A program made the position numbers and the translations under genes. Positions 17,472-62,900 of a stretch of DNA of 64,000 bases are shown here, piece after piece. How positions within the stretch are numbered: the stretch's first letter is position 1; each line of letters begins with the position of its first letter. Origin of the DNA: Calothrix sp. PCC 7716 (GTDB lineage: Bacteria; Cyanobacteriota; Cyanobacteriia; Cyanobacteriales; Nostocaceae); assembly GCF_019977735.1 (NCBI RefSeq), contig NZ_AP025018.1, positions 496,001 to 560,000 of the forward strand, written 5' to 3'. The notes beneath the pieces were generated by a model. The model was not told where the DNA came from, ran no database searches, and saw only the letters and a program-made list of their open reading frames with translations.

Positions 17472-19328
17472 TTATATTGCAACAAAACCTGCCTCTTCAA
17501 TCACTTTCCGACGTGGCGCCGTTTTAAGTAGCTTAATATAAGCAGTACCCACTTGCTTTGAAATCGGATTATTTTGATTGTAAATGACAAAGAGCCGGTT
17601 TGTAAGCGGGTATGTTTCATTTTTAAATGCAGCAACATTCGGTTTATTTCGATTTGTAGGTGTACATTTTGCCAAGGGTACTAGTGGCTTTTTATAGGGA
17701 GATACTAAATTTGAAGAGTTTGTACCAATAGCTAAAGCTTTTCCTTGACATTGACGAGCTAAATGTGCAGATGAAACTAGAAAAATACCGTTTTCATCAC
17801 GAAATACCTTTACCATTCCTTCAGTAATACCTGGAGCATTCTCTATTTTATTCACATCTTCACGAAGTTCATTACCTCCCAAAACCTTAAGTTTTAATAT
17901 TTCATTAACACTAGAATTGCTTCCTTCATAAATATTTATTTTATTTATTTTTAAACTATTTGCGACTCCAACTTGATTCCAATTATTAATTTTACCTGTC
18001 AGAATATCACGAAGTTGATTAATGGTTAAACCATCAATTGGTAAATTTTGATTAACTCCAACAGCAATTCCATCAATTGCGATAGGTTCTTCTACTAACA
18101 GCGCTCCCTGACTTTGAGCTTGTTTATTTTCTTCATCTGAAATATTACGAGAAGAAATGGCAAAATTAACCTGTTTTTTCAATAATGATTGAATTCCATA
18201 TCCTGAACCTGGTCTATTTCCCGGACGAGGTGAAAAATTCAATTTAAACTGAGGACAAGTATTTTCAATACTTTTTTCTACATCATCCCTAAAAAGTTGC
18301 CAAGTAGTACTGCCACTATAGCTAAAGTTACCTTCTGGAACGCTGTTTAGTATACAAATTAAAGGAGAATCATTTGCGAAAACTGATAACATCGAAAATA
18401 AACTTACAATTGTAAAACCAGCTAAAATCCATTTGAAAAACTTTAAAATTTTTTTGTTTGCTTTTGTAGGTGAAATTTGGGTATCAGGAATTTGCGTTAA
18501 TCGTTGCTGCGGTTGATATTCAAGCTGTTCAAGTGCTTTTAGTACTTCAAATGCAGATTGATATCTTTGGCTTGACTGAATACGAACCATATTATTTAAA
18601 ACGTTTTTCAATCCAGTCGAAGCCTTTGTATTAACTAACTCATTTATATTATCATCAATATTTCTCGTTAATTTTCCGGGATGTACACCAGTCAAAGCTT
18701 GAATGGCAACAATACCCAAAGCATAAATATCACTACAAGGCAAAGGTCTTTTTTGGAGTTGTTCTAATGGCATGTAGTCAGGAGTGCCAATAGCTACCGT
18801 GCTTGGGTCATTTAAAGCTTCTTGAAATTTTTCTTTAACGGCGCCAAAATCAATTAAAACTATTTTATTATCTTTACTGCGTCTAATTAAATTTGCTGGT
18901 TTAATATCACGATGAATAACCCGATTATTATGATTATGAATAAAATCTAAAACTTTCAAAACTTGCTTTAACAAATCTATAACTTCAAATTCAGACAGCG
19001 TTCTTTCCAAAAAAATGTCTGTTAAAGTAGCTCCTTCAATATACTCTTGAACTAAATAAAATTCTTGATTCTCTTCAAAATAAGCATATAATTGAGGTAT
19101 TTGCTCGTGTTCATCACCCAATTCGCGAAGCGTTCTGGCTTCACGGTCAAACAATCTTCTTGTTATCTCTAAAACAGAAAAATTGATTTGTGGTCTAAGC
19201 CTTTTAACAACACACAAACAGTTGAAACGTTTTAAATCCTCTGCTTCATAAGTTTCGCCAAATCCTCCAATACCTAAAAGCCGAATGATTTTATAACATC
19301 CACCCAAAACAGTTCCAGGTACAAGCAT
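17472..19328 (-). CDS. Ser/Thr kinase fused to a PstS-like phosphate-binding domain
   Basis: A 618-residue membrane protein. The N-terminal Hanks-type kinase (about 12-265) has GIGGFGETYEA (glycine loop), K42, HRDIKPANLI (139-148) and IDFGAVKE (DFG at 160-162). A transmembrane helix lies at about 297-318 (FKWILAGFTIVSLFSMLSVF). The C-terminal half (about 330-618) resembles PstS/SphX phosphate-binding proteins: SGSTTWQLFRDDVE, NFAISSRNISDEE, EPIAIDGIAVGVN and LTINQLRDILTGKINNWNQVG. The layout suggests an extracytoplasmic ligand sensor driving a cytoplasmic kinase; ligand binding is inferred. It lies 33 bases upstream of the FAD monooxygenase on the same strand. Confidence 0.88.
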   Translation of the reverse strand: MLVPGTVLGGCYKIIRLLGIGGFGETYEAEDLKRFNCLCVVKRLRPQINFSVLEITRRLFDREARTLRELGDEHEQIPQLYAYFEENQEFYLVQEYIEGATLTDIFLERTLSEFEVIDLLKQVLKVLDFIHNHNNRVIHRDIKPANLIRRSKDNKIVLIDFGAVKEKFQEALNDPSTVAIGTPDYMPLEQLQKRPLPCSDIYALGIVAIQALTGVHPGKLTRNIDDNINELVNTKASTGLKNVLNNMVRIQSSQRYQSAFEVLKALEQLEYQPQQRLTQIPDTQISPTKANKKILKFFKWILAGFTIVSLFSMLSVFANDSPLICILNSVPEGNFSYSGSTTWQLFRDDVEKSIENTCPQFKLNFSPRPGNRPGSGYGIQSLLKKQVNFAISSRNISDEENKQAQSQGALLVEEPIAIDGIAVGVNQNLPIDGLTINQLRDILTGKINNWNQVGVANSLKINKINIYEGSNSSVNEILKLKVLGGNELREDVNKIENAPGITEGMVKVFRDENGIFLVSSAHLARQCQGKALAIGTNSSNLVSPYKKPLVPLAKCTPTNRNKPNVAAFKNETYPLTNRLFVIYNQNNPISKQVGTAYIKLLKTAPRRKVIEEAGFVAI

Positions 19329-19481: not shown

Positions 19482-20980
19482 TTATAACGGTGGCGCCGGA
19501 AGTGGTTTTGGTGGCGCCGACATTGGGTCTATACCACCTTGTCCGACTTCAAACTGGCTCATCATGTCATGGTCTTCGTGAACCATGTTATGGCAATGGT
19601 ACATATACTTACCGATGTGAGGTTTAAACTTGCCAATTATTCGCACAGTCTCGTTTTCACCAACATAGAAGACATCCTTCAAGCCACGTTCGTAAGCAAA
19701 AGGAGGCTGACCATTGCGGTCAAGAATTTGACCTTCAATAAGGTGAAGGTGAACAGGATGAAACCATAATCCTGAAGTGTTTTGTAGCTTCCAAATCTCC
19801 ACCTCTTCGAGTCGTGGGTTTGCGTCCACTCTATTTTTATCCCATCCCTTATCGTTGATGAGCCACATTCGGTTGCTCCGATCAAATATAAACTCGCGCG
19901 TTCTTACAGCATCTGATTCTGAAAGAAATGCAATATTGCGTAATGTGCTAGGAATAGAACTGTTATCAACTTCAGAACGCACAACATCAAAACGCATAAT
20001 CTTGTTTGTGTTGCCAGTATTATCGTTATTGGGGAGTCCTAGATTTTGCAGTTCTACTTGAGTTCCTATGAAGTATTTGGAAAAGTCAATAATCAAGTCA
20101 TATCGCTCTGCCATTCCAAGACGCATATCTTTAGTATTAACTGGTCTAGGCATTAACCCATCATCAGTACCAATGACAGTTATGTCATCCCCTGTACTCA
20201 GAGCTAGTTTGTAAGAGCGAGAAATTGATGCGTTTAACACGCGGAAGCGGTACTTACGGTTTGCAACTTCCATACGAGGCCAAGGAACACCGTTGACAGT
20301 AATTACCTCCCCCATCAAACTATGTTGAGCTTGGTCATCAAAAATGAGTGAACCATCAGCAGCGAATTTTTTATCGTGAATAATTAGAGGAATATCATAA
20401 TCTCCGGATGGGAGCGGCAAATTCAGTTCCTCATCATCCTGAACAATATACATCCCCGCCAAACCCATGTACGCATTGAAAGAAGTCTTTCCAAGTGCAT
20501 GGTCGTGGTACCACATAATAGAGGCAACGCTGTTTGGATATGATATACGTAATCTTTGTAAAACCCCGGAGATATCAAATCTTCAGCGTAGCCATCATAC
20601 TGAGGTTGGGATGGCATTCCATGCAAATGAACTGATGTATTTATACTAAGATTATTAATAAATCTGACAACAGATTGCCTATTCTTACGTTGTTTAATCG
20701 TGGGTCCGGGGAAGATACCGTTATAGCCCCAAATTTGAGTTCTTCGTCCTGGTAAAATCTCTAAGAGAGCTATCTGCATTGCTATCTCATAGTAGTCAGT
20801 GCTAGAATCGCTACGCACAGGGTTCAATACTGGTGGTTTACGAAAGGCAAGTCTAAACGGTTCTACTCGCTCATCAGTTCTTTGAGCATATCCCCGATAC
20901 TGAAGTCCTATAGGTAGCAAAATACCACCACCCGCAAGCGCTGCAATCTTTAATAATTCACGCCTAGTAACTTTCTTCAT
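19482..20980 (-). pseudogene. Multicopper oxidase with Tat signal, frameshifted
   Basis: Two overlapping frames form one multicopper oxidase of the bilirubin-oxidase/CotA type. The N-terminal frame (20,423-20,980) has a twin-arginine signal (MKKVTRRELLKIAALAGGG) and the first copper motif HLHG. The second (to 19,482) has WYHDHALGKT, HPVHLHLIEGQ and YHCHNMVHEDHDMM, covering type 1, 2 and 3 copper ligands. The frames change at about 20,536-20,547: adding one base there restores ...YVYHYPNSVASIMWYHDHAL. All copper motifs are otherwise intact, so this is either a recent loss, a programmed event or a base-call error. No partner genes; a 500-residue periplasmic enzyme if repaired. Confidence 0.85.
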
Positions 20981-21626: not shown

Positions 21627-24341
21627 TCAATTTATATTACTAAGTTGCAATATCCAACGTCGAAATAACTCTACAACAATTCGCCATCGTCCCTGATGTT
21701 GCTCAACTACATCATGGCGTTGCAGTGCCATCAATGCTTCCATTATGGTAATATCGTTTGCATCAGTAATAAGTTGAGTGATTTCTTCTATGCCAAGACC
21801 TTCTTGATGTGGCGCCAAGACTAGCAGTATAGCTTGTTGTCCTGATGCACCTTGCATTGCTTGCCCCCAAACTCCATCAAAGTAGTAACGTCCTTGCTGG
21901 AAAAATACCGAGTTATCAACTACTGTCTCTACATCTTTTAATGTAAAAACAGGATTACGCTGGTGTTGCATTTCAAACACTTGGTCATTATAACGTCGCA
22001 CTAACTGAAACCCAAGTAACTGAACTAAAAAAGGTTGTCCGTGGGTAAGAGCATAGATTTCATCAAGAGCTTCTGGTGCATAGTCAAGAGGAAAATCATC
22101 GACACTAGGATTTGCTAAAATTACATGCGTTGCACTCAATTGCATGAAGCTAACTTTGATAGGTGGGATAAAACTAGCGTATAAAGGCTGAAAATAATCT
22201 GATGTCATCTCCTCTAAAGTGTGCAACCCTGCCAGCGCAAATCCTATTTTTGAGCTTGTCTGTATCCAACTACGAAGGTACTGCATAAAATTACTAGAAA
22301 TTTTACCAGCAACAATAAGCTCCTCAATTTTCTCAAACTCATCAAGGGCAATAATTAAACTTTGTTGTGATGTTTGTAAAGCATCCGCTACCCGCTCTAA
22401 ATAGCGTCGAAATGTCGGGTAGGGTAAATTTAATAAATCATCGTCGTTAGGCGCCTCAACATTTACAGCTTGTGAAATTGCATCACTCATTGCCATTAAA
22501 AACTCACCCTCAGCCTGAGCAATATCTCCGACTCCAAGTAAATTAACATACGCTACCTTTACTCCTGCACCAAGTCGCTGCGATAAATTGCGAAGTATCG
22601 AAGTTTTTCCCATACGTCGATGCCCGTAGAGTACTACCGACTGCATTTGAGTTCCCATTAACCAAAGTTCTTCAAGTTGACGCATAATATCTTGGCGCCC
22701 AACAAAAAATTCTTCTTCTACAGGGTCGCCAACAGTATAAGGATTTTTTACAGGCTTTGTAATTTCGATTTGTCCAACTTCCCTTGCTTGACGTTCAAGG
22801 GCTGTTTTCCAATTTTGCGCGATGTCAACTATTAACCCTCGTTCAGCTTCAGGTAATGTATCAGCATTATCTATTATTTGCGTAACTTCGCCAATAGCAC
22901 GGTTAAGAGCAAACGCGCGTGCTGCACGAGAAGTAGCATTTTGAATAATTTGGGTATTGTTTATAATACGACGAAAACTATGAAGTGCTTGCCAAGTAGT
23001 AGGGCGAAGTAAAGGTTCTGTAGGGAAAGCAGGAAGCGAAAGGGTAGATATGTTTGACAATGCTTTGACATCGTTACACATCATAAGAACTTCGGTGAGA
23101 GTATATATTTCTTCGCCATACAAGTAACAACGAACTATAGCAAAACATTGTTTTGCTTCTACAGGTTTTTTTTTATAGAGATTATAAAAGCCCTTTGCAG
23201 TGGCGTGCATAGGATGTAAGGTTGTAATATCATTTGTTTGTGCAGAAGCTAAAAGGCAATTAAGTAAATTCCAACCATGTGGAGATTCAATTAACTGGGT
23301 TAAGCGATATATAATTTGTTCTTCGGGTATTTCTATAAAAACTTTATTTAAAGCTTTAGCTACAGATGTAAATTGGAAAGAATATTGCAATAAATTTAGA
23401 ACATTATTCCATCCAATTTCCCAATCTTTTTGAAACCATTTTTTTATTTTTAAAGATAAAAATAAAGAAGGAATAGAACTTGTATTAAGAAAGTACAAGT
23501 ATTTTTCCCACCGACTCAATAATGTTATAATTAGATTTAATAAATAGGCATCAGGACGAAGTATAAAGAAAGTTAATCCAATTAAAACCCAAACCTCTGT
23601 CTCAGCACCTTTTGTTAAAGCTATTACTAGACCAGGAAAAATTCCTAATATCACGTATAGTGACAGCATATATCTATACTGAATGTCTATTCCTCCTGAT
23701 AGGCTCCACGCAAATGCCCACGATATAATTGGCATCCATCTCCATATTAATTTTAATAAATATCCGCAAGTTAAAAATATTAATAAATATGATATTAAGT
23801 TACTTATAAATGTTAAAATAAAAATATTTAAAAAAATATAAAATATTAGAATTAGTATCAAAATTACAACTATAAGCATAAAACTAGCTTCTCCTATAGT
23901 AGTTAGCATTAATACGCTTGAAGTTATAAAAAGTGGTAATGCAAGTAAAATTTGTTTCTTTAAAATCGTTAATAGAGAAGCTATAAATACAAATACTATT
24001 CCTTGGGCAAATAAGTTACGTTGAATGTCACTCGCAATTAATGATTCTAAACTTTTACGTAAGATTGATGTTTGATTAAACACATATGATAATCCTGATA
24101 CATTTGTGAAGAAATTTATAGAACGAACCACAAAGGACACAAAGGGCACAAAGAAAGATGGAAAAGAAATTTTTACGACTGATTTAGTGTTGCTATTTGT
24201 GTCTTGAGTATCAATATACCATTGCAATGCTTGAGGAAAGTAAAATACCCAGTAGAGTAAACGTAAATAATCAAGGGGATTCCATACCGAGAGTGGGCGC
24301 CTGAGTTTGGGTGCTAAGTCTAAACGAGGAACAGAGGTCAT
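21627..24341 (-). CDS. Membrane-anchored AAA/STAND-type ATPase
   Basis: A 904-residue protein. The N-terminal 260 residues are hydrophobic, with about eight membrane segments. A helical linker follows, then an ATPase of the archaeal/AAA_16-like type: NPYTVGDPVEEEFFVGR near 530, Walker A VVLYGHRRMGKTSILRNL near 573, Walker B LIIALDEFEKIEEL near 667, and a C-terminal winged-helix-like end (GLGIEEITQLI, ALQRHDVVEQHQGRWRIV). This architecture is known from predicted NTP-dependent conflict systems and is paired here with a protease-ATPase and a Trypco1 protein upstream on the same strand. Residues about 62-72 (FPSFFVPFVSF) are encoded by a dispersed repeat. Confidence 0.82.
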   Translation of the reverse strand: MTSVPRLDLAPKLRRPLSVWNPLDYLRLLYWVFYFPQALQWYIDTQDTNSNTKSVVKISFPSFFVPFVSFVVRSINFFTNVSGLSYVFNQTSILRKSLESLIASDIQRNLFAQGIVFVFIASLLTILKKQILLALPLFITSSVLMLTTIGEASFMLIVVILILILIFYIFLNIFILTFISNLISYLLIFLTCGYLLKLIWRWMPIISWAFAWSLSGGIDIQYRYMLSLYVILGIFPGLVIALTKGAETEVWVLIGLTFFILRPDAYLLNLIITLLSRWEKYLYFLNTSSIPSLFLSLKIKKWFQKDWEIGWNNVLNLLQYSFQFTSVAKALNKVFIEIPEEQIIYRLTQLIESPHGWNLLNCLLASAQTNDITTLHPMHATAKGFYNLYKKKPVEAKQCFAIVRCYLYGEEIYTLTEVLMMCNDVKALSNISTLSLPAFPTEPLLRPTTWQALHSFRRIINNTQIIQNATSRAARAFALNRAIGEVTQIIDNADTLPEAERGLIVDIAQNWKTALERQAREVGQIEITKPVKNPYTVGDPVEEEFFVGRQDIMRQLEELWLMGTQMQSVVLYGHRRMGKTSILRNLSQRLGAGVKVAYVNLLGVGDIAQAEGEFLMAMSDAISQAVNVEAPNDDDLLNLPYPTFRRYLERVADALQTSQQSLIIALDEFEKIEELIVAGKISSNFMQYLRSWIQTSSKIGFALAGLHTLEEMTSDYFQPLYASFIPPIKVSFMQLSATHVILANPSVDDFPLDYAPEALDEIYALTHGQPFLVQLLGFQLVRRYNDQVFEMQHQRNPVFTLKDVETVVDNSVFFQQGRYYFDGVWGQAMQGASGQQAILLVLAPHQEGLGIEEITQLITDANDITIMEALMALQRHDVVEQHQGRWRIVVELFRRWILQLSNIN
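24127..24157. repeat. ACCACAAAGGACACAAAG repeat inside a coding region
   Basis: A member of the ACCACAGAGACACAGAG family read in antisense by the membrane ATPase gene, where it encodes a Phe/Val-rich stretch in the N-terminal hydrophobic region. Confidence 0.7.
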
Positions 24342-24478
24342 TTTAAATTTGGGATTGAGTAAATGATTGTGTAAGTTAAATAATTTTCTGTATCATATAG
24401 GGTTGGGAATGAATGTAGAGACTAAATATGGTTAATCTCTACAAATGGTTTATTTTTGTTTAGGGACAGGCAAGATGC

Positions 24479-25786
24479 CTATCCTACGCTTTTATCTCGG
24501 TAATCGTTATAAAGACGATGGCACATTTGCATTACTTCTCTAGGATATCCACGACTAGCGGTTATAACCTTTGCGATATCTTCTTTGCTAAAATAAATCG
24601 GGTTGAATACCATACGTTGGTCTATGAACTTCTGGATAGTTTTTGCATCCCATAAGTTAATTGCCTCCTCAATACAAATTCCTTGAAAGGGTGAAGTCAT
24701 GCCAATTTCGTTGCTATCGGGGAATAGCTTGTTTAACGAAGTTGAGGCGCCAATAACTAATCTTAGTGGTGCATCACTACCTTCTGCTAACCCACGCAAC
24801 TGTGAGCGAACTTGGTTGGTAAAACCTTTCCATGCCATTTTTTCAATTTCGTCGAGGACAAGTAGAAGACGTTGTTGTTGCAACGCGCGCGTAAGAGTAT
24901 ATCCTTTACATTCCTTAATACCAATTTCGTAACAAAGAGCGGCGTAAAAATCTTTCTCGTCAGACACATGGTTTAAATTAAGGTAGATGGGTTTACGAGG
25001 TGTACAAAGCCGGATTTCTGCTTGCTGACAAATTGCCCATAATAGCGATGATTTTCCTATACCTCTTTCGCCAATAACAGCAACGCTACTGCCGCTATTT
25101 AGTGTCTCGAAAACACGGCTTAACTCCCGTTCTCGTCCAAAAAATTGACGCGGGTTTTCAACACGTCCATTTAGGGGTAAAAAAGGATTTGGTGGAATAT
25201 CAATTTTTGTTTGCTGTTGAGCAAGTGCAGGAAAAGTTGCGAAAATAACACTGGTAGGAACAGCACGTCCACCAAGGTCAAATTCAACATCGCGCGAGCG
25301 TTTAACTACACCACAGATTTTTCCAGTTTTTTGGTTGAGCAAGGGTGAACCACTAAACCCAGGACGTACTTGTCCGGCTTTAAACTTGAGTAAAGGTGGT
25401 TCATTACCATCAAATCCTTCACATACGAAAGTCGCTGGTTCACCATTTTCATATTCCCTGGTATAGCCAAAGGTATAGAGTTCATCGCCAACTGCAACAT
25501 GTTCACTTAAATTGACACAACTATGATTTATATGAGCGTTATTTAACCTAAGAAGCGCCAGGTCTACAGTCTCAGGGTTTGTTGGTAACGACTCAATGAT
25601 GGCTATATATTTCTGGTTTTGCCACCACATTAGAATTGGTTGTTGTTGGGTATATGCTGCTTTTACTACATGAAAACAAGTAAGAATCAATCCTGGTGAT
25701 ACAAAAAAACCCGTTCCCAATTCATCATCTGCACCCTGCAACCGCACCGTACATTCACTGAGATTTGCTGCTAACGAATCATCCAT
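24479..25786 (-). CDS. Trypsin-like protease fused to a STAND/AAA NTPase
   Basis: A 435-residue fusion. The trypsin-like domain (1-190) has the full triad: H39 in LILTCFHVVKA, D75 in PETVDLALLRL and S145 in RPGFSGSPLLN. The NTPase domain follows from about 200: NPRQFFGREREL, Walker A AVIGERGIGKSSLL (236-249) and Walker B RLLLVLDEIEKMAW (D312/E313), ending with a helical lid (ASRGYPREVMQMCHRL). Fusions of this kind, next to Trypco domains, are described as predicted conflict/immune systems in which NTPase sensing activates the protease. The gene lies 69 bases after the Trypco1 gene and 137 bases before the membrane ATPase. The stop codon is inside a dispersed repeat. Confidence 0.87.
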   Translation of the reverse strand: MDDSLAANLSECTVRLQGADDELGTGFFVSPGLILTCFHVVKAAYTQQQPILMWWQNQKYIAIIESLPTNPETVDLALLRLNNAHINHSCVNLSEHVAVGDELYTFGYTREYENGEPATFVCEGFDGNEPPLLKFKAGQVRPGFSGSPLLNQKTGKICGVVKRSRDVEFDLGGRAVPTSVIFATFPALAQQQTKIDIPPNPFLPLNGRVENPRQFFGRERELSRVFETLNSGSSVAVIGERGIGKSSLLWAICQQAEIRLCTPRKPIYLNLNHVSDEKDFYAALCYEIGIKECKGYTLTRALQQQRLLLVLDEIEKMAWKGFTNQVRSQLRGLAEGSDAPLRLVIGASTSLNKLFPDSNEIGMTSPFQGICIEEAINLWDAKTIQKFIDQRMVFNPIYFSKEDIAKVITASRGYPREVMQMCHRLYNDYRDKSVG

Positions 25787-25855
25787 ATGTTTCTGGCGTT
25801 ACCAGTGTTTGTAAGCAAAGCGTAAGTTAAGAAAGCATTTTCACTGAGATAGCTG

Positions 25856-26170
25856 TTATGTTGTCGGTTTGTTCTCCCACTCCATAGTTATTTTTAAGTT
25901 TCCTTTCTTTTCGCCGCTTACTAGTAATGTTAGTATTTCACCACTCTTTACTGTCACCTCTAAACCAAACTCTATTGCTACTTTATCCGGTTTGATTTTT
26001 TCTACCGTTGTCGCAACTTGGGTTGCAATTGCTTCTATAGCATCAGTTACAGGCTTAAAAGACAAAAACTTACTCGAAACATCTTCTTCACCTCCAAGCG
26101 TGCGTGCTTCTACTAATAACGTTAGTGTATCTGTTACCTTAACAGGAATAACTTTGGTTCGCGGCTCCAT
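25856..26170 (-). CDS. Trypsin-co-occurring domain 1 (Trypco1) protein
   Basis: A 104-residue protein matching the trypsin-co-occurring domain 1 family (CU044_2847-like): KVIPVKVTDTLTLLVEA at the start, a central helix IEAIATQVATTVEKIKPDK, then VAIEFGLEVTVKSGE and the terminal strand GNLKITMEWENK. Such domains are thought to be substrates, regulators or guards of the linked protease (established only by genomic association). It is the first gene of the minus-strand unit followed by the trypsin-NTPase fusion. Confidence 0.85.
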   Translation of the reverse strand: MEPRTKVIPVKVTDTLTLLVEARTLGGEEDVSSKFLSFKPVTDAIEAIATQVATTVEKIKPDKVAIEFGLEVTVKSGEILTLLVSGEKKGNLKITMEWENKPTT

Positions 26171-26831: not shown

Positions 26832-27473
26832 ATGTTGAAGTATGTACCACCAAGAGTGGCTGCTGCCCAACTGGGAGTTTGCAGCAAAACCCTTGAACGC
26901 TGGGAATCAGAGGGAAAAATCAAATCCTACCGAACCCAAGGAGGTCAAAGAAGATACGACATCGATTCAGTTATCGCTTCTTCACCTGCCTCTAAACCCA
27001 CCGTCCTCTACGCTAGAGTTTCCAGCCATAGTCAAAAAGCTGACTTGCTTCGACAGATTGAGTTTCTTATCTCTCGTTACCCCAGTTGCGAAGTCGTTAG
27101 AGACATCGGGAGTGGACTCAACTTCAAAAGAAAAGGTTTGCTTGCCTTACTGGAACGAATTTTGTCAGGTGATGTCGGAATGGTTGTCGTTGCCAACAAA
27201 GACCGACTTTGCAGATTCGGGTTCGATCTTATCTCATGGATCGCAGACCGCAGTGGGTGTAAAATTTTGGTTCTCAACAACCACGTACTTAGCCCAGAGC
27301 GAGAGATGCTGGAGGATGTTCTTGCCATCATCCATGTGTTCTCTTGTAAATTATATGGACTCAGAAAGTACAAACAAAAAATTAAAGAAGACTCTGACTT
27401 ACCGAGTTTATCCAAAGGGAAAAACGAAGAAAATATGGATGCTGAGGATACACGCATACCGCAAAGTTTATAA
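26832..27473 (+). CDS. tnpA: IS607 serine recombinase TnpA
   Basis: A 213-residue IS607-type transposase. A MerR-like helix-turn-helix (YVPPRVAAAQLGVCSKTLER, with KSYRTQGGQRRYD) precedes a resolvase catalytic domain starting PTVLYARVSSHSQKADLLRQ, in which the Ser of RVSS is the nucleophile; GSGLNFKRKGL and VVANKDRLCRFGFDL follow. The C-terminal 25 residues overlap the start of tnpB in another frame. Motifs appear intact. Confidence 0.92.
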   Translation: MLKYVPPRVAAAQLGVCSKTLERWESEGKIKSYRTQGGQRRYDIDSVIASSPASKPTVLYARVSSHSQKADLLRQIEFLISRYPSCEVVRDIGSGLNFKRKGLLALLERILSGDVGMVVVANKDRLCRFGFDLISWIADRSGCKILVLNNHVLSPEREMLEDVLAIIHVFSCKLYGLRKYKQKIKEDSDLPSLSKGKNEENMDAEDTRIPQSL

Positions 27474-28656
27474 CAATGCCATCGCGTATTTGAATCAGCA
27501 TCAATCTTTTGAATACTTCAATAAAAAGGGAAAAAAGACGGGAGGGAAAACAGCATTTAGAAGTTTTTGTAAAACATTGGGTGAAGAAATAATTCCAGCT
27601 TGGTGTAAAGAACTAAAAATAGCTCATGCATTAGATAATGCTTTATTTGAAGCTTATACAGCATGGAGTAAAACCAAGCGCCAAGATAAATTTATTGGGA
27701 AAGGTCAAGATAAAAAGCCTAACCCAACGGCAGGATTAAAGCTGGCAAAGTTTAAGTCAATCCGTGACCAAAAACAGACAATTCAATTTGATCCTGGCGA
27801 TTATAACGACGGGCATTTTATGTCTGTTTCTTCTTCATGTTTAGAAAAGCCTGAATACTGTGGTCAAGATTATTGTTTGATTAATTATGACTCTGCAACT
27901 GAACTAACATACAACAAAGGTAGATGGTACGCTAACTTTCCTATCGATGTTGATGTAGAAAATGTCTCAAAGCAGCCAAAAATCATTGCGCTTGACCCAG
28001 GATTAAGATGTTTTATGACGGGTTTTGATGGCAATAACTTCACTGAGTTTGCGAATGGTGATTTCTCGAAAATTGCTAAATTATGCTACTCACTTGATAA
28101 ATTAAAGTCAAAACATGATAAATCAAAGGGTGGTAAGTTTAAACGCTTCCGCCATCGGTTGAAACAAGCAATGGAACGAGTTAGAACAAGAATTAAAAAT
28201 TTACGCATCGAAGTGCATAAACAAGTTGCCTCACATCTAGCTCGTAACTATGACACGATTTATTTACCAACATTTGAGACTTCGCAAATGGTAGCCAAGA
28301 AAAAGCGCAAACTTAAAAGTAAATCCGCGCGCGCTATGATGACTTGGGCGTTTTATGAATTTAGTCAAACCCTGCAACATCTCTGTAATCGTTACGGTTC
28401 GAGATTAGTTCGAGTGACTGAAGAGTACACATCGAAGACGTGCAGTAAATGCGGTCATGTCCACCACAAGTTAGGTGGAAATAAAAAGTTTAAATGCCCA
28501 AATTGTGGGTATGAAATTAAACGCGATTTTAATGGAGCCTTGGGAATTTTTCTTAAGGCGTTGTGGGATACCACCTTTATTCACGACGTGTTCGAGGATA
28601 ATGTTGTATTCAGACTGTCCAAGAATGTCTTAGATATTCGGGGTTGTCTGGATTAA
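27355..28656 (+). CDS. tnpB: TnpB RNA-guided nuclease of IS607 element 1
   Basis: A 433-residue TnpB. The frame is open upstream to 26,842, but that part is a shadow of tnpA; the ATG at 27,355 (MDSESTNKKLKKTLTYRVYP) starts the real protein, overlapping tnpA by 119 bases. RuvC motifs are KIIALDPGLRCFMTGF (first Asp), YLPTFETSQM (Glu) and EIKRDFNGALG (last Asp). The zinc ribbon is CSKCGHVHHK...FKCPNCGYE. All catalytic residues are present, so it may be active. It would use a guide RNA from the element's 3' end, which overlaps the gene's end. Confidence 0.92.
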   Translation: MDSESTNKKLKKTLTYRVYPKGKTKKIWMLRIHAYRKVYNNAIAYLNQHQSFEYFNKKGKKTGGKTAFRSFCKTLGEEIIPAWCKELKIAHALDNALFEAYTAWSKTKRQDKFIGKGQDKKPNPTAGLKLAKFKSIRDQKQTIQFDPGDYNDGHFMSVSSSCLEKPEYCGQDYCLINYDSATELTYNKGRWYANFPIDVDVENVSKQPKIIALDPGLRCFMTGFDGNNFTEFANGDFSKIAKLCYSLDKLKSKHDKSKGGKFKRFRHRLKQAMERVRTRIKNLRIEVHKQVASHLARNYDTIYLPTFETSQMVAKKKRKLKSKSARAMMTWAFYEFSQTLQHLCNRYGSRLVRVTEEYTSKTCSKCGHVHHKLGGNKKFKCPNCGYEIKRDFNGALGIFLKALWDTTFIHDVFEDNVVFRLSKNVLDIRGCLD

Positions 28657-58255: not shown

Positions 58256-61200
58256 TTAAATGTTCCCCTTTCCCTTTACCAGGCAAGTATTAAATTGTGT
58301 TTTTTGTTGAGGATTACTTTTAAAATAGTCTTGTAGCCAGGTACATCCTTCAAAAAGTAGTTGATTTAAATCTTTAATTTGCCATATTATAGCGGCGCCA
58401 TCTTCGCTTGCTGTACCTAAAAGCTTACTATCAGGGCTAAAGTTTACACTTCTAATAATGCCTTGATGTCCTCTTAATTCTGCTAGCTGTTTTCCAGAGG
58501 ATGTCCATAGTCTTACGGTTCTATTCGTTGAACCTGTCGCAACTAGCTTGCCATCTTCACTAAAAGTTATATTTTCAACTTTACCTTGATAAGTTTTAAA
58601 TTCGACTAATTGTTTTCCAGAATCATTATCCCAAATTCTAACTGTACTATCATCTCCAGAGGTTGCAAGTTGCTTATTGTTGTAACCAAAATTAAGTGTA
58701 TTAACCCTGCCTTTATGTCCGTTGAGTGTTTTCAAAATTTTACCTTCATTGTTCCATAACTTGACCAAACCATTATTATCTCCTGTTGCAACAAGCTTAC
58801 TGTCTGAGCTAAATCTAAAATTTTTAATGTTATCATCAGGTAGTAATAAGGAATTTTTAAATTTACTATCAAGTTTCCATAGCTTTACTGTACCATCTTT
58901 TCCAAGTGTACCGATTACTTTGGCGTTTTGATATTCTCCAAAATTAATACTTGTGATTCCACCTTGTTCGGTATGAATTGGTTCTCTAAATAATTTCAGT
59001 TCAAGTTTGCTATCATCAATTTTCCAAATTTTTAGCCAGTCGTCTTTTCCACCTGTAGCTATAAATTTTCCATCTGGGCTAAAACGGACGCTTTGAACCG
59101 TACTTTCAGCATCAAATTCTTTTAATTTTTCTCCATTGCGACTCCACAATATTATTTTACCATCTTCAAAAGATGTGGCAATTATTTTACCATCTTTGTT
59201 AAAACGGATACTTGAAACAGCAGAAATATTATTATCTTGGCGCCGTGCTAATCTAGTTAACGGCTTTTCTTGAAGGTTCCACAATCTAATAGTACTATCC
59301 TCTTTTCCAACTGTAGCAAGCATTGTTTCATCACCTGGGTTAAAACGAATACTTTCAATACTGCCTTGATGCGCTCTAAATTCTTTCAAAAGCTCACCAT
59401 TTAAATTCCACGTTTTGAGTGTTCCGTCTTTACCAGATGTAATTAATTTTTCATCACCTTTGCTAAAACGAACGGTTTCAGTACTACCTTGATTAGCTCT
59501 AAAGTTTAATATCTCTTTTCCTGATAAATCCCAATGTCTAACTGTACCATCTTCGCCTGCTGTTGCAATTGAGGCGCCACTACTACTAAATTGCACACTG
59601 TTTACAGAACCTTGATGACCTTTAAATTCTGCCAGTAACACTCCATTCAAATCCCATAGTTTTGCTGTACCATCTTCACTTGATGATACAATTTGCTTTC
59701 CATCCTGACTCAAAATAAGGCTTTTAATACTTTTTGTATGAGCTTGAAATTCTTTTTCCTGGCGCCCTGATAAATTCCATAGTCTAACTGTACCATCATC
59801 TCCAGATGTTACAACCCGTTTGCTATCAGGAGTAAAACGAACATGGTTAACACTACCATCATGACCATTAAATATTGCTATTAACCTTCTTTCTCCTGCC
59901 GACGATTTCTCAGCATCCCACAATTTTGCCGTACCATCACTTCCTGCTGTAGCTATATATCTCTCATCTGAACTCAAACGAACACTTTTGACGGCATTAT
60001 TTCCATGAGCCTTAAATTCTTCGGGTGAATTTTTTCCAGATAAATCCCATAATTTGACAGTACCATCCTTTCCACCTGTGGCAAGTGTTTTACCATTTTT
60101 GTCAAAGCTGACGCTGTTAATACCATCTTGGTAAGTTTCGATTTGGTTTGTTTGGCTAATACTGTCTAAAATTGTTTGCAATACTAGTAGTGGGCTGACT
60201 GCTGGATATTTTTCTGTCGAGCGACTGTTTTTGATAAAGCTTAATGGCTCTTTAATTAAGTCTTGTAGTTGTTGCCCGGTTTGCATCGCTGCTAATAAAG
60301 CTTCTATTTGTACAAATTCAAATTGTTGTAAAGCTGTGTAACCTGCGCGCTCAAGTTGTGTCGCTTTAGCTTCTTGTTGTTGCCAAACTGTCCCCCACGC
60401 CAAGCTTAATGCTAAAAACACTCCAAAAACTAATCCAGCAATAATACTTCTTCTTTGATATTTCTCTTTTTGTCGTAGTCTTATACTTTTTTGAATGAAT
60501 ACCTGCTGTGGTTTACTAATTTCTGCACTGCGTTTTTGCAAGTAGTCTTCTGCTGCTACTAAAGGCGCCCCTCTTAACAAAGCTCCATTATCCTGTTTAC
60601 TATCTATCCATTGCTGCAACGCTATTTTCAAGCCTTCTTGCCAAGTGCGAAATTTACGGTTTAGAAGCATCCAACCACTTAGGCGCCCCCAATGTTGAAT
60701 TAATGCTTCATGCACAAGTTCGACTGTTTCCTCAAAAGTTGATTCATTTCTATTTGTAACAACCAAACGTTCGGATGCTAAATATATAACTAAATCCCAA
60801 TTTTCGTCCAATATATCCTCGCGCGTTGCTAACTTGCGGGTATCTTGTGTACCTTCACCAGGTTGTACCAACTGAATAAAAATTTGTTGGGCTGTTTTTT
60901 GTTGTTCCTCGCTTAAAGAAGTGTAAACTGCTTCAGCATAATTAGCCAGCGCTTGCTCAACTCTTCCTATTTTTTGATATGCTTGATATGTCAAACGTCC
61001 TGATTGTTGCTGCTTCCATAGTTGAGTCAGTGTAAACTCTAGTAATGGTAGGCGCCCTTCTCCATCTTGAATATGATTAATTATTGTTTGGCATAAACCT
61101 GGCTCGAACTCAAAGCCTAATTTAGTTGCAGGTAGTGAAATAGCACGTTTTAATTCTTCTTTGTTCATCCGTACAAGTAGTTCTTGCTGATACTCTTTAA

Positions 61201-62761
61201 GTGCTTTGCCAAATGGTTCATAATCAAGTAATTTGCTCAAAAAGTCTATCCGTAAAGTCAGTACTACCGTACAAAATGAAGAGTTATTTATTACGTTTAA
61301 TAATTCATCTAAAAAGATTTTGCGTTCAGATGTATCTGTGCAAAGAGTGAAAATTTCTTCAAATTGGTCTATAACGAGTAAAAGTCGATGGTTAGGTGCA
61401 GCGTTATTATGTTGTAATGCGTTTGTTAAAGACTTTAGGGGATTGTTGAGGGGACGAAATGATATTATATGCCAAGTATTTACCGTATCTTGACGTAATT
61501 GAGGAATTAAACCGGCAAATACTAGTGATGACTTGCCACTTCCAGAGGCGCCGACAACAGCTACTAATGGTTTATTATTAACAGCAGCTACTAAATCAGA
61601 CGTAGCTTTTTCTCTACCAAAAAAGTATTGAGCATTTTTTTCGGTAAATGCAGCTAACCCTTGGTAAGGGCAAAACGAAATTATACCTAAGCTTTGCCAG
61701 GTTGGTGGTGTTTCTGTTTGATTTTGAATAATTATAGGCAACCAGCTTGCACAAGGAAAATATTTTTCTTGCTTCCGTAAAAGTTGACGCGCGTTTTTTA
61801 CAGAAGCGTACAACGACTCTCCACGAGTAAAATGTAATAAAAAAGATTTTAAGAATATTTGTGCGACTTTATCAGGAACAGGTTCACGCATAACAATTAC
61901 TTGGGGAATATGTAATTGTTCTAACTCATAGGCAATACCCAACCCATCACAAGAATTAAAAAATGCTATTTGTAAGCGCTTTGTAATTGCAACTTGTAAA
62001 GCATCATTTAATTCCCCCATCGTCAAGCTATCATAGCTATTTATCAAAATTCTACCATGTATAGTACCTTGGTTATGAGTTCGGGAATGTCCAGAGAAAA
62101 AGAGAATATCCCAACCGATGTTATCTTGTAAGTGGTGACTTAATTCTTCACGCGAAGGTTGTTTGAGCAAGACAATTTCTGCCTCACCGCAATACTGTTC
62201 CAACTCAATTTTATCAACATCTACATTGATTCCGGTAGTGTCACCCAGAATAATCAAAATTCTAATTTTTTCGCGCAAAGGTCGTTCACCCCGTTTAGCA
62301 TTAGGCGAACTCAAAGCCACTTCTGCCCGTGTATACTTATTTATGGCGCCGCACAAATGCCAAGGTAGTTGACGTAGTTCGTGACAAGAGCTACAAATAA
62401 TAACTCTAATTTCATCTTGATGGTGCTTTAACTCCTTGAGACAGTTAATAACAGGACTAAAATCATCTGAATTTAACCAGGAATTAAAATTACTTAACAA
62501 ACTCTGCGACTTACGTTTAAAATCTTTACTTAGCGTATCAATATTTACGCTTCTACTATTAATCGCTTTAATCCTGAAATCACCAAACTGACCACGGTAA
62601 CTATTTTGCCAATCATTCAATAAAGAAAAGAGAGCAGTATTTGCAGGTAACTTCGCTGTCACCATGCGATAAGCTCGTTCTCCTTCATTGGCAATTTCTA
62701 AGCTTACATTAAAGTCAGTCCCCGAATCACCATCAAACTTGAGAATTATCATTTTTTTCAT
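58256..62761 (-). CDS. CHAT protease - STAND NTPase - WD40 repeat protein
   Basis: A 1501-residue multidomain protein. The N-terminal CHAT (caspase-like) peptidase (about 1-345) has His227 in ILFFSGHSRTHN and Cys273 in AFFNSCDGLG. A novel-STAND NTPase (about 365-790) follows: YQGLAAFTEKNAQYFFGREK, Walker A VVGASGSGKSSLVFAGL and Walker B LLVIDQFEEIFTLC. One membrane-like helix (about 800-820) precedes about fourteen WD40 repeats (VKLWDLSG, VRLWNLSG-type). This is a predicted caspase-like conflict/cell-death switch: WD40 sensing, NTPase oligomerisation, protease activation. Start: ATG at 62,761 is preferred; a TTG two codons upstream is possible. Confidence 0.9.
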   Translation of the reverse strand: MKKMIILKFDGDSGTDFNVSLEIANEGERAYRMVTAKLPANTALFSLLNDWQNSYRGQFGDFRIKAINSRSVNIDTLSKDFKRKSQSLLSNFNSWLNSDDFSPVINCLKELKHHQDEIRVIICSSCHELRQLPWHLCGAINKYTRAEVALSSPNAKRGERPLREKIRILIILGDTTGINVDVDKIELEQYCGEAEIVLLKQPSREELSHHLQDNIGWDILFFSGHSRTHNQGTIHGRILINSYDSLTMGELNDALQVAITKRLQIAFFNSCDGLGIAYELEQLHIPQVIVMREPVPDKVAQIFLKSFLLHFTRGESLYASVKNARQLLRKQEKYFPCASWLPIIIQNQTETPPTWQSLGIISFCPYQGLAAFTEKNAQYFFGREKATSDLVAAVNNKPLVAVVGASGSGKSSLVFAGLIPQLRQDTVNTWHIISFRPLNNPLKSLTNALQHNNAAPNHRLLLVIDQFEEIFTLCTDTSERKIFLDELLNVINNSSFCTVVLTLRIDFLSKLLDYEPFGKALKEYQQELLVRMNKEELKRAISLPATKLGFEFEPGLCQTIINHIQDGEGRLPLLEFTLTQLWKQQQSGRLTYQAYQKIGRVEQALANYAEAVYTSLSEEQQKTAQQIFIQLVQPGEGTQDTRKLATREDILDENWDLVIYLASERLVVTNRNESTFEETVELVHEALIQHWGRLSGWMLLNRKFRTWQEGLKIALQQWIDSKQDNGALLRGAPLVAAEDYLQKRSAEISKPQQVFIQKSIRLRQKEKYQRRSIIAGLVFGVFLALSLAWGTVWQQQEAKATQLERAGYTALQQFEFVQIEALLAAMQTGQQLQDLIKEPLSFIKNSRSTEKYPAVSPLLVLQTILDSISQTNQIETYQDGINSVSFDKNGKTLATGGKDGTVKLWDLSGKNSPEEFKAHGNNAVKSVRLSSDERYIATAGSDGTAKLWDAEKSSAGERRLIAIFNGHDGSVNHVRFTPDSKRVVTSGDDGTVRLWNLSGRQEKEFQAHTKSIKSLILSQDGKQIVSSSEDGTAKLWDLNGVLLAEFKGHQGSVNSVQFSSSGASIATAGEDGTVRHWDLSGKEILNFRANQGSTETVRFSKGDEKLITSGKDGTLKTWNLNGELLKEFRAHQGSIESIRFNPGDETMLATVGKEDSTIRLWNLQEKPLTRLARRQDNNISAVSSIRFNKDGKIIATSFEDGKIILWSRNGEKLKEFDAESTVQSVRFSPDGKFIATGGKDDWLKIWKIDDSKLELKLFREPIHTEQGGITSINFGEYQNAKVIGTLGKDGTVKLWKLDSKFKNSLLLPDDNIKNFRFSSDSKLVATGDNNGLVKLWNNEGKILKTLNGHKGRVNTLNFGYNNKQLATSGDDSTVRIWDNDSGKQLVEFKTYQGKVENITFSEDGKLVATGSTNRTVRLWTSSGKQLAELRGHQGIIRSVNFSPDSKLLGTASEDGAAIIWQIKDLNQLLFEGCTWLQDYFKSNPQQKTQFNTCLVKGKGNI

Positions 62762-62900
62762 AGGCAATGCTTTTTATCATCCTAAAGATAGATTGACATA
62801 ATATCTTTATTGGTATGGGCGCCGGATTAACATAACAACCCTAAACAGTAATACAAATTTAATCGCAGTTTTTATGCAAGGACTTCCAAAAAATAATATA

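Follow-up and report, generated by a model that had tools for sequence, protein, structure and literature searches.

A two-NTPase gene pair with exchangeable fronts and a variable membrane segment in cyanobacteria: a possible split membrane receptor

Introduction

Three adjacent genes of the cyanobacterium Calothrix sp. PCC 7716, coding for a Trypco1 (trypsin-co-occurring domain 1) protein (gene A), a trypsin-like protease fused to a STAND-like nucleoside triphosphatase (NTPase; gene B) and a membrane NTPase (gene C), raise the question of whether they form one unit and what such a unit might do. They lie in a stretch of 64,000 nucleotides (contig NZ_AP025018.1, positions 496,001 to 560,000), called here the window, whose numbering is used throughout; the genome measures 12.37 Mb, and the relatives are cyanobacterial. 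A first-pass annotation had inferred that the genes form a complete sense-signal-kill unit. Comparison of the related loci gave a different constant core, namely the NTPase half of B together with C.

B and C form a recurrent gene pair

Open reading frames (ORFs) and Pfam domains confirmed the three genes where the first-pass annotation had placed them, all on the minus strand: A (104 aa) at 25856..26170, B (435 aa) at 24479..25786 and C (904 aa) at 21627..24341. The intergenic gaps calculated from the ORF coordinates were 69 nt between A and B and 137 nt between B and C.

The pairing of B with C was followed in two surveys that share genomes; below, L numbers denote loci, G numbers genomes, g numbers genera and f numbers families. 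The first covered 291 genomes of the order at an expectation value (E) ≤ 1e-20, distant and partial relatives included, and returned C matches in 94/291 genomes and B matches in 79/291; 80 regions, chosen mainly from C matches and in a few cases from B matches, were examined for gene order. The second drew on 202 matches in named genomes and used the best 80, every one of them cyanobacterial. At 55 of the 65 informative loci of the first survey a B-type NTPase gene preceded C in the same orientation or was joined to it (54 adjacent and one fused, L107), with a spacing of ≤600 bp at 47 loci, 601-2500 bp at 6 and farther at 1. The second survey had 70 informative loci, and B stood upstream of C at 65, in 61 cases at a distance of ≤600 bp. 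Overlapping B-C gene pairs numbered 20 in each survey.

The recurrence of the pair in other genomes rules out a chance arrangement, and on these counts C was rejected as a chance neighbor of B. The co-occurrence check that had been proposed for the third gene therefore came out in its favor, in that C stays with the NTPase of B. The proposed complete three-gene unit stood only in this part; A, B and C are not one fixed unit, trypsin-type B making up 9/54 adjacent pairs in the first survey and 3/65 in the second. In a phylum-wide sample of 244 genomes, C-type matches (E ≤ 1e-60) occurred in 25, of which 22 belonged to the order of the window. A tandem C-B-C arrangement, with an extra C upstream of a B-C pair, was seen at L086 (7496-15180).

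The front of B is exchangeable

The front module of B in the window is a trypsin-like domain (residues 24-160; 25307..25717, minus strand; Trypsin_2, E 4e-14) in which a check of the alignment columns found the triad H39, D75 and S145 complete. Its NTPase half (residues 199-435; 24482..25192, minus strand) matched AAA_22 (E 2.7e-9), nSTAND1 (E 8.1e-9) and also NACHT. The fusion of a serine protease with a STAND-like NTPase and a full triad, as first annotated, was thus upheld. All three triad residues were kept in 11 of the 12 aligned trypsin-type B proteins, that of the window included; L148 carries a trypsin-type deletion chimera with most of the protease domain gone. The Walker A motif of the window protein (GERGIGKSS) was intact and its Walker B was DE. 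Among the B relatives the Walker A lysine was kept in 56/57 and the Walker B DE in 27/57, and 57/57 matched nSTAND1 at E 0.01. The NTPase half was constant across the front classes, and strong B matches in other genomes mostly covered only about residues 199-430. In the window B ended directly after the NTPase; the Pfam scan showed neither repeats nor a sensor domain at its C terminus, although a divergent sensor on B or C could escape such a scan.

Nine classes of front were found in all: trypsin, CHAT, TIR, EAD4 and five helix-turn-helix (HTH)-like or helical groups. BLAST clustering of 57 B fronts, with Pfam support for some, gave eight groups, namely HTH-like helical (14), trypsin (12), Xre-like (10), loose helical (9), LuxR/sigma-type HTH (6), a small group (3), CHAT (2) and EAD4 (1; L132, E 7.7e-37, with none in the window). 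The labels HTHa, XRE, HTHc, LUXR and KREN are those of this analysis, XRE having been given by resemblance (HTH_26, E 0.034 and 0.11) and HTHc being loose enough that it may hold several families. One HTH-like class matched GerE/Sigma70 HTH models. TIR fronts stood beside C clearly at L221 and L228, just under the cut-off at L232, and at the distant locus L330 as well. Among 120 listed of 620 database homologs of the B NTPase half, taken as sequences without gene context, two had HEPN_Swt1 fronts and one a TIR front; PF26355, annotated beforehand on some homolog fronts, was not reproduced in a Pfam scan of those fronts.

Front exchange on B was repeated and local. On the B NTPase tree (56 proteins, L148 being left out) the eight front groups required 20 changes, the least possible number being 7. 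In a comparison of 89 loci, from which sequence duplicates and loci with unclassified fronts had been removed, 80 of the 235 locus pairs with C-ATPases 80-97% identical differed in front class. Single loci bore this out. In genus g35, L084 and L085 were ~90% identical to L096 over ~6 kb upstream and 88-89% downstream, and the first ~390 bases of B did not align; the C protein of L096 (566 aa) was without the membrane-coding stretch present in L084 and L085. The flanks of L088 and L150 in genus g66 were 95-96% identical and their NTPase DNA 90%, with different fronts. L088, L092 and L118 of the same genus had C-ATPases 91-93% identical, fronts of three classes, and membrane and middle parts of C that were unlike (identities 0.22-0.48). 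Sister NTPases of family f20 bore CHAT fronts at L120 and L127 and a trypsin front at L126.

HTH-like fronts are drawn from a genome-wide pool. In 12 genomes searched with each module, the HTH-like helical one had 3-27 matches per genome (12 in the window genome) and the Xre-like one 2-10; 45 proteins with HTH-like fronts, the B proteins of the pair excluded, included 17 with NB-ARC, 10 with NACHT, 8 with AAA_35 and 4 with TIR.

C combines a conserved ATPase with a hypervariable membrane segment

From its N terminus, C consists of a signature (residues 5-42; 24216..24329), a membrane segment (about residues 60-262; 23556..24164), an all-helical middle domain (about residues 290-522; 22776..23474) and an ATPase with a winged-helix end (residues 536-904; 21630..22736), all on the minus strand. 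The ATPase matched ATPase_2 (E 6.3e-9, residues 546-689), and a Kyte-Doolittle scan gave 6 hydrophobic segments in the first 261 residues, in agreement with the earlier description of a second NTPase with a multi-helix membrane part. Walker A was intact in the window protein (GHRRMGKTS), Walker B was DE, and the Walker A lysine and Walker B DE were kept in 48/48 aligned relatives. HTH_IclR was matched in 22/48 of these and nSTAND1 in 5/48.

The ATPase was common to all 48 aligned proteins, and the signature (family consensus NPLDYLRLLYWVFYFPQALRWY) had nearly invariant columns, many of them ≥90% conserved; the membrane segment was hypervariable while these two parts were conserved. Runs of glycine at every fourth residue, of ≥5 units and up to 32, lay between the signature and the middle domain in 35/48 C proteins, and at L093 the DNA coding for the array was a 12-bp unit repeated 39.9 times in tandem. 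The window protein had hydrophobic helices, a glycine-every-fourth run of at most 2 units and no 12-bp array. Between C proteins with ATPases 90-97% identical, the middle part had a mean identity of 0.76 and the membrane part one of 0.60; both values are rough, since repeats align only crudely.

AlphaFold2 gave a model of C (mean predicted local distance difference test score (pLDDT) 72.4, predicted template modeling score 0.46) that was of good quality in the middle domain (pLDDT of the block mostly 78-97) and over most of the ATPase but of poor quality in the membrane part. Structural matches covered residues 540-904, that is, outside the middle domain, and the ATPase region resembled ORC/Cdc6, SSO1545-type and NLR/Avs NTPases, mostly at high root-mean-square deviation over the full stretch. 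As ORC/Cdc6 chains scored equal or higher, the match to STAND folds is not specific.

A second C gene fragment in the window genome (L005, C1:8935094-8935345; 54% identity to residues 807-900, one stop) is a sign of turnover. Two further kinds of C-like protein were observed. Stand-alone proteins of 484-559 aa in genus g71 (L142-L145), at loci without B, have the signature, the glycine-repeat membrane part and the middle domain, with the ATPase absent. At L134 and L135, C-type ATPase proteins of ~700 aa have the membrane part replaced by an Xre-like module; in G060 (L135) a module used elsewhere as a front of B stands on C itself.

Trypco1 accompanies trypsin-type fronts

A matched Trypco1 (PF19493, E 1.4e-16) and was assigned by NCBIfam (NF041216) to the CU044_2847 family; it directly adjoins a trypsin-type B, which is the neighborhood of the Trypco1-trypsin association. 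Its structural model had a mean pLDDT of 52.8, too poor for use of the fold. In BLAST searches with the window protein, which may miss divergent Trypco1, the domain was found beside trypsin-type B at 8/9 pairs in the first survey and 3/3 in the second, and at none of the non-trypsin B-C pairs of either survey; at the ninth trypsin-type pair of the first survey the contig ends inside B. This distribution makes Trypco1 plus trypsin an exchangeable head on a two-NTPase core. The sole exception was L122 (= L206, 7830-10955), where Trypco1 stood directly upstream of C and no B was found.

Away from the B-C pair, at least 7 trypsin matches with a Trypco1 match ≤60 bp upstream occurred in the surveyed genomes among the matches listed. 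The window genome has one other Trypco1 gene, and no trypsin-like ORF was seen on the 3.3 kb around it. The view that the Trypco1-trypsin association is known only from computational work holds for the open literature, where the papers found were computational (PMC7159879 and PMC10907252, in the parts available to us).

Distant relatives keep the gene order

A second lineage (L314-L317) had C proteins 25-29% identical in the ATPase, preceded by trypsin-NTPase proteins of 523-525 aa. The order Trypco1, trypsin-NTPase, membrane NTPase was complete at L314, and at L316 a Trypco1 match lay 0.3 kb upstream of the protease match; none was seen at L315 and L317 among the matches listed. In a trypsin-domain tree of 21 rows, L213 (family-I) grouped with L316 of the second lineage (95/89), which in so small a tree is suggestive of exchange.

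At 19 of 20 farther loci C was preceded, in the same orientation, by an NTPase gene with Walker A; the distance ranged from -38 to 1644 bp, in some cases with small ORFs in between, and the twentieth locus ends at a contig end. C matched a short pattern of the YW/FW-F-P type near its start at 15/20. The distant B of L333 matched nSTAND2 above the cut-off.

Surroundings of the locus

A perfect palindrome with a 12-bp stem lies between B and C (24414..24443, minus strand). The 137-nt gap had an RNA fold z of -4.04, and the palindrome sequence was present at 2 places in the window genome, that is, in one further copy.

Just upstream of the module, and oriented away from it, is an IS607-like element (26832-28656, plus strand) in which a MerR-HTH plus resolvase ORF (213 aa) overlaps one that is TnpB-like and has a Cas12f1-like TNB domain. 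On the other side, on the minus strand, are a multicopper oxidase (19482-20980) in two overlapping ORFs of different frames, as if frame-shifted, and a Ser/Thr protein kinase fused to a phosphate-binding-protein-like domain (PBP_like_2; 17472-19328). Farther away, a 1503-aa ORF (58256-62767, minus strand) contains an NTPase related to that of B beyond about residue 360; its start resembles a CHAT protein by eye.

Discussion

The explanation that we consider best, at somewhat under an even chance, is that the module is a STAND-type receptor, split over two proteins and anchored in the membrane, that works in conflict or programmed cell death, a function inferred from its parts and their recurrence. 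C would sit in the membrane and sense damage or invasion there. Its always-intact ATPase would switch state and nucleate a mixed NTPase oligomer with B, and the oligomer would bring together and switch on the fronts of B. In the window the front is the trypsin domain, which may then cleave cell or partner proteins and so halt the infected cell. Trypco1 might hold or position the protease, a role that is a guess given the poor model of this protein.

We favor C as the sensor and driver and B as the carrier of effectors or adaptors. The Walker motifs are kept in every aligned C while the Walker B of B is often altered, as if C drives and B follows. That the setting is one of conflict or cell death is argued by the fronts of B that are conflict-system domains (trypsin, CHAT, EAD4 and TIR, with HEPN_Swt1 on database homologs of its NTPase half) and by the recurrence of the HTH-like fronts on NB-ARC, NACHT, AAA_35 and TIR proteins of the same genomes. 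The receptor reading as a whole is further favored by the recurrent pairing of B with C, the repeated exchange of fronts, the resemblance of the C ATPase to STAND/ORC-type folds, the same gene order in the second lineage and the NTPase genes upstream of C at the farther loci. The B-NTPase tree is also mirrored by that of the C-ATPases (r 0.82, 51 pairs, five B loci without usable C being left out), a value reached in 0/2000 permutations. The swappable fronts at related loci suggest an uncharacterized, fast-changing system of defense or self-destruction. With less confidence still, the loci could represent a large cyanobacterial family of split membrane immune receptors, in which a two-NTPase core is re-armed by replacement of the front in place and the membrane partner carries a transmembrane array coded by 12-bp repeats; the exchangeable front and the hypervariable array would let output and input diversify separately at one locus.

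Several known systems share features with the module. B and the C family have the P-loop with Walker A and B motifs and the profile matches of the STAND class, and C-terminal sensor or superstructure repeats on the same protein were not found on B or C by Pfam. STAND immune NTPases such as Avs and the NLR resistosomes are single proteins with a C-terminal sensor; here the front and the presumed sensor are on two proteins. Closest in layout is the nSTAND2 conflict operon, described, in the part of PMC8195603 available to us, as two adjacent STAND genes, both with nSTAND2 modules, of which one has variable fronts and often degraded catalytic motifs. Two adjacent STAND NTPase genes with variable fronts on one partner are common to both, and the nSTAND2 match of B at L333 ties the pair to that computationally described operon. 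The differences are that C is a membrane protein and that the fronts are trypsin, CHAT, TIR, EAD4 and HTH-like rather than GT4; B and C of the window had no nSTAND2 match in Pfam at E up to 1.

Systems of effector-associated domains likewise reuse interchangeable fronts, adaptor or effector in kind, throughout a genome (accessible text of PMC7159879 and PMC8195603), and one such domain, EAD4, occurs on one B. The EACC1 two-gene system, as set out in the accessible part of PMC7159879, combines a gene for EACC1 with a single transmembrane segment and a caspase-type gene. It shares the membrane-linked two-gene layout, but in the present pair the partner that stays constant is a membrane NTPase; neither EACC1 nor a caspase-type gene was found in A, B or C by Pfam, and CHAT fronts occur on B in relatives. 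KAP NTPases have transmembrane helices inserted into the P-loop domain; C had no match to this family at E up to 1, and its hydrophobic part precedes the ATPase. An MNS-clade "Npun2340/2341" NTPase family of cyanobacterial STAND proteins is named in the available text of PMC8195603. The double name hints at two adjacent genes and might denote the B-C pair; it also raises the possibility that this family of NTPases was recognized as early as 2004. In the open literature no paper was recognized as describing the pair, most subscription papers being outside the search.

A number of observations weigh against a split immune receptor. Informative C loci without B numbered 10/65 in the first survey and 5/70 in the second, and L150 has B and no recognized C. 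The agreement of the B-NTPase tree with that of the C-ATPases cannot separate partnership from common descent. At seven farther loci (L333, L335-L340) B has no front module, so that output there must come at least partly from elsewhere. Helical or HTH-like fronts, which may be plain DNA-binding domains, are the majority (67/89 deduplicated loci). A defense-island comparison of the flanks of 48 loci with control regions of 12 kb, one per genome, from 20 surveyed genomes gave no clear signal: PADLOC (E 1e-20) matched 57 families in 120 flank ORFs and 18 in 120 control ORFs, with many models per protein, the scan having taken 120 of 150 and 120 of 131 ORFs, respectively. A search of viral contigs with the C alignment found no C relative, and the open literature held no experiment on the module.

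The main rival, which we regard as rather unlikely, reverses the roles. C would be the executioner, its membrane segment forming a pore or breaking the membrane, and B the trigger, whose front receives or relays the signal and, in the trypsin version, activates C by cleavage. The glycine array would be the membrane element of C in most relatives, in keeping with its frequency and length. The frontless B proteins of the seven farther loci leave C as the only visible output, and proteins made of the membrane part and middle domain exist alone in genus g71. However, TIR, CHAT and trypsin fronts look like outputs rather than triggers, the window C is without the array, and the membrane part was modeled at low confidence only.

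An improbable alternative is a regulator of membrane stress or development unconnected with immunity, in which B would mostly bind DNA, C would be a membrane sensor and the protease and TIR versions would be offshoots. The prevalence of HTH-like fronts, the class matching GerE/Sigma70 models and the lack of a clear defense-island signal all fit such a regulator, but the same modules are carried by NB-ARC, NACHT and TIR proteins, and rapid exchange for protease, CHAT, TIR and EAD4 fronts would be unusual.

Trypco1 beside trypsin was defined, in the accessible part of PMC7159879, in VMAP ternary systems, in which a MoxR ATPase, a vWA protein and a VMAP-C protein are encoded together. These systems share the pairing with the window, where, in contrast, a STAND-like NTPase is joined to the trypsin domain in one protein and a membrane NTPase gene comes next. 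MoxR, VMAP and ternary-type vWA had no match in A, B, C and 14 other proteins scanned (17, of 47 window ORFs ≥120 aa, distant genes being partly outside the scan), the only vWA protein found lay 8 kb away with an SdrD_B domain, and on these proteins VMAP membership was rejected. A VMAP-type ternary assignment of the three genes, with C next to B by coincidence, is scarcely credible, C being the regular partner of the NTPase of B.

If the module is indeed a split membrane receptor, Trypco1-trypsin would be a transferable module and would not in itself point to a VMAP system. The glycine-repeat membrane array would be a second fast-changing element whose role as sensor or pore is testable. Effector modules could be compared on one constant chassis, the natural single-locus swaps being ready-made domain-exchange experiments, and the B-C pair would provide a concrete pair of genes with which to probe immunity or programmed death in cyanobacteria.

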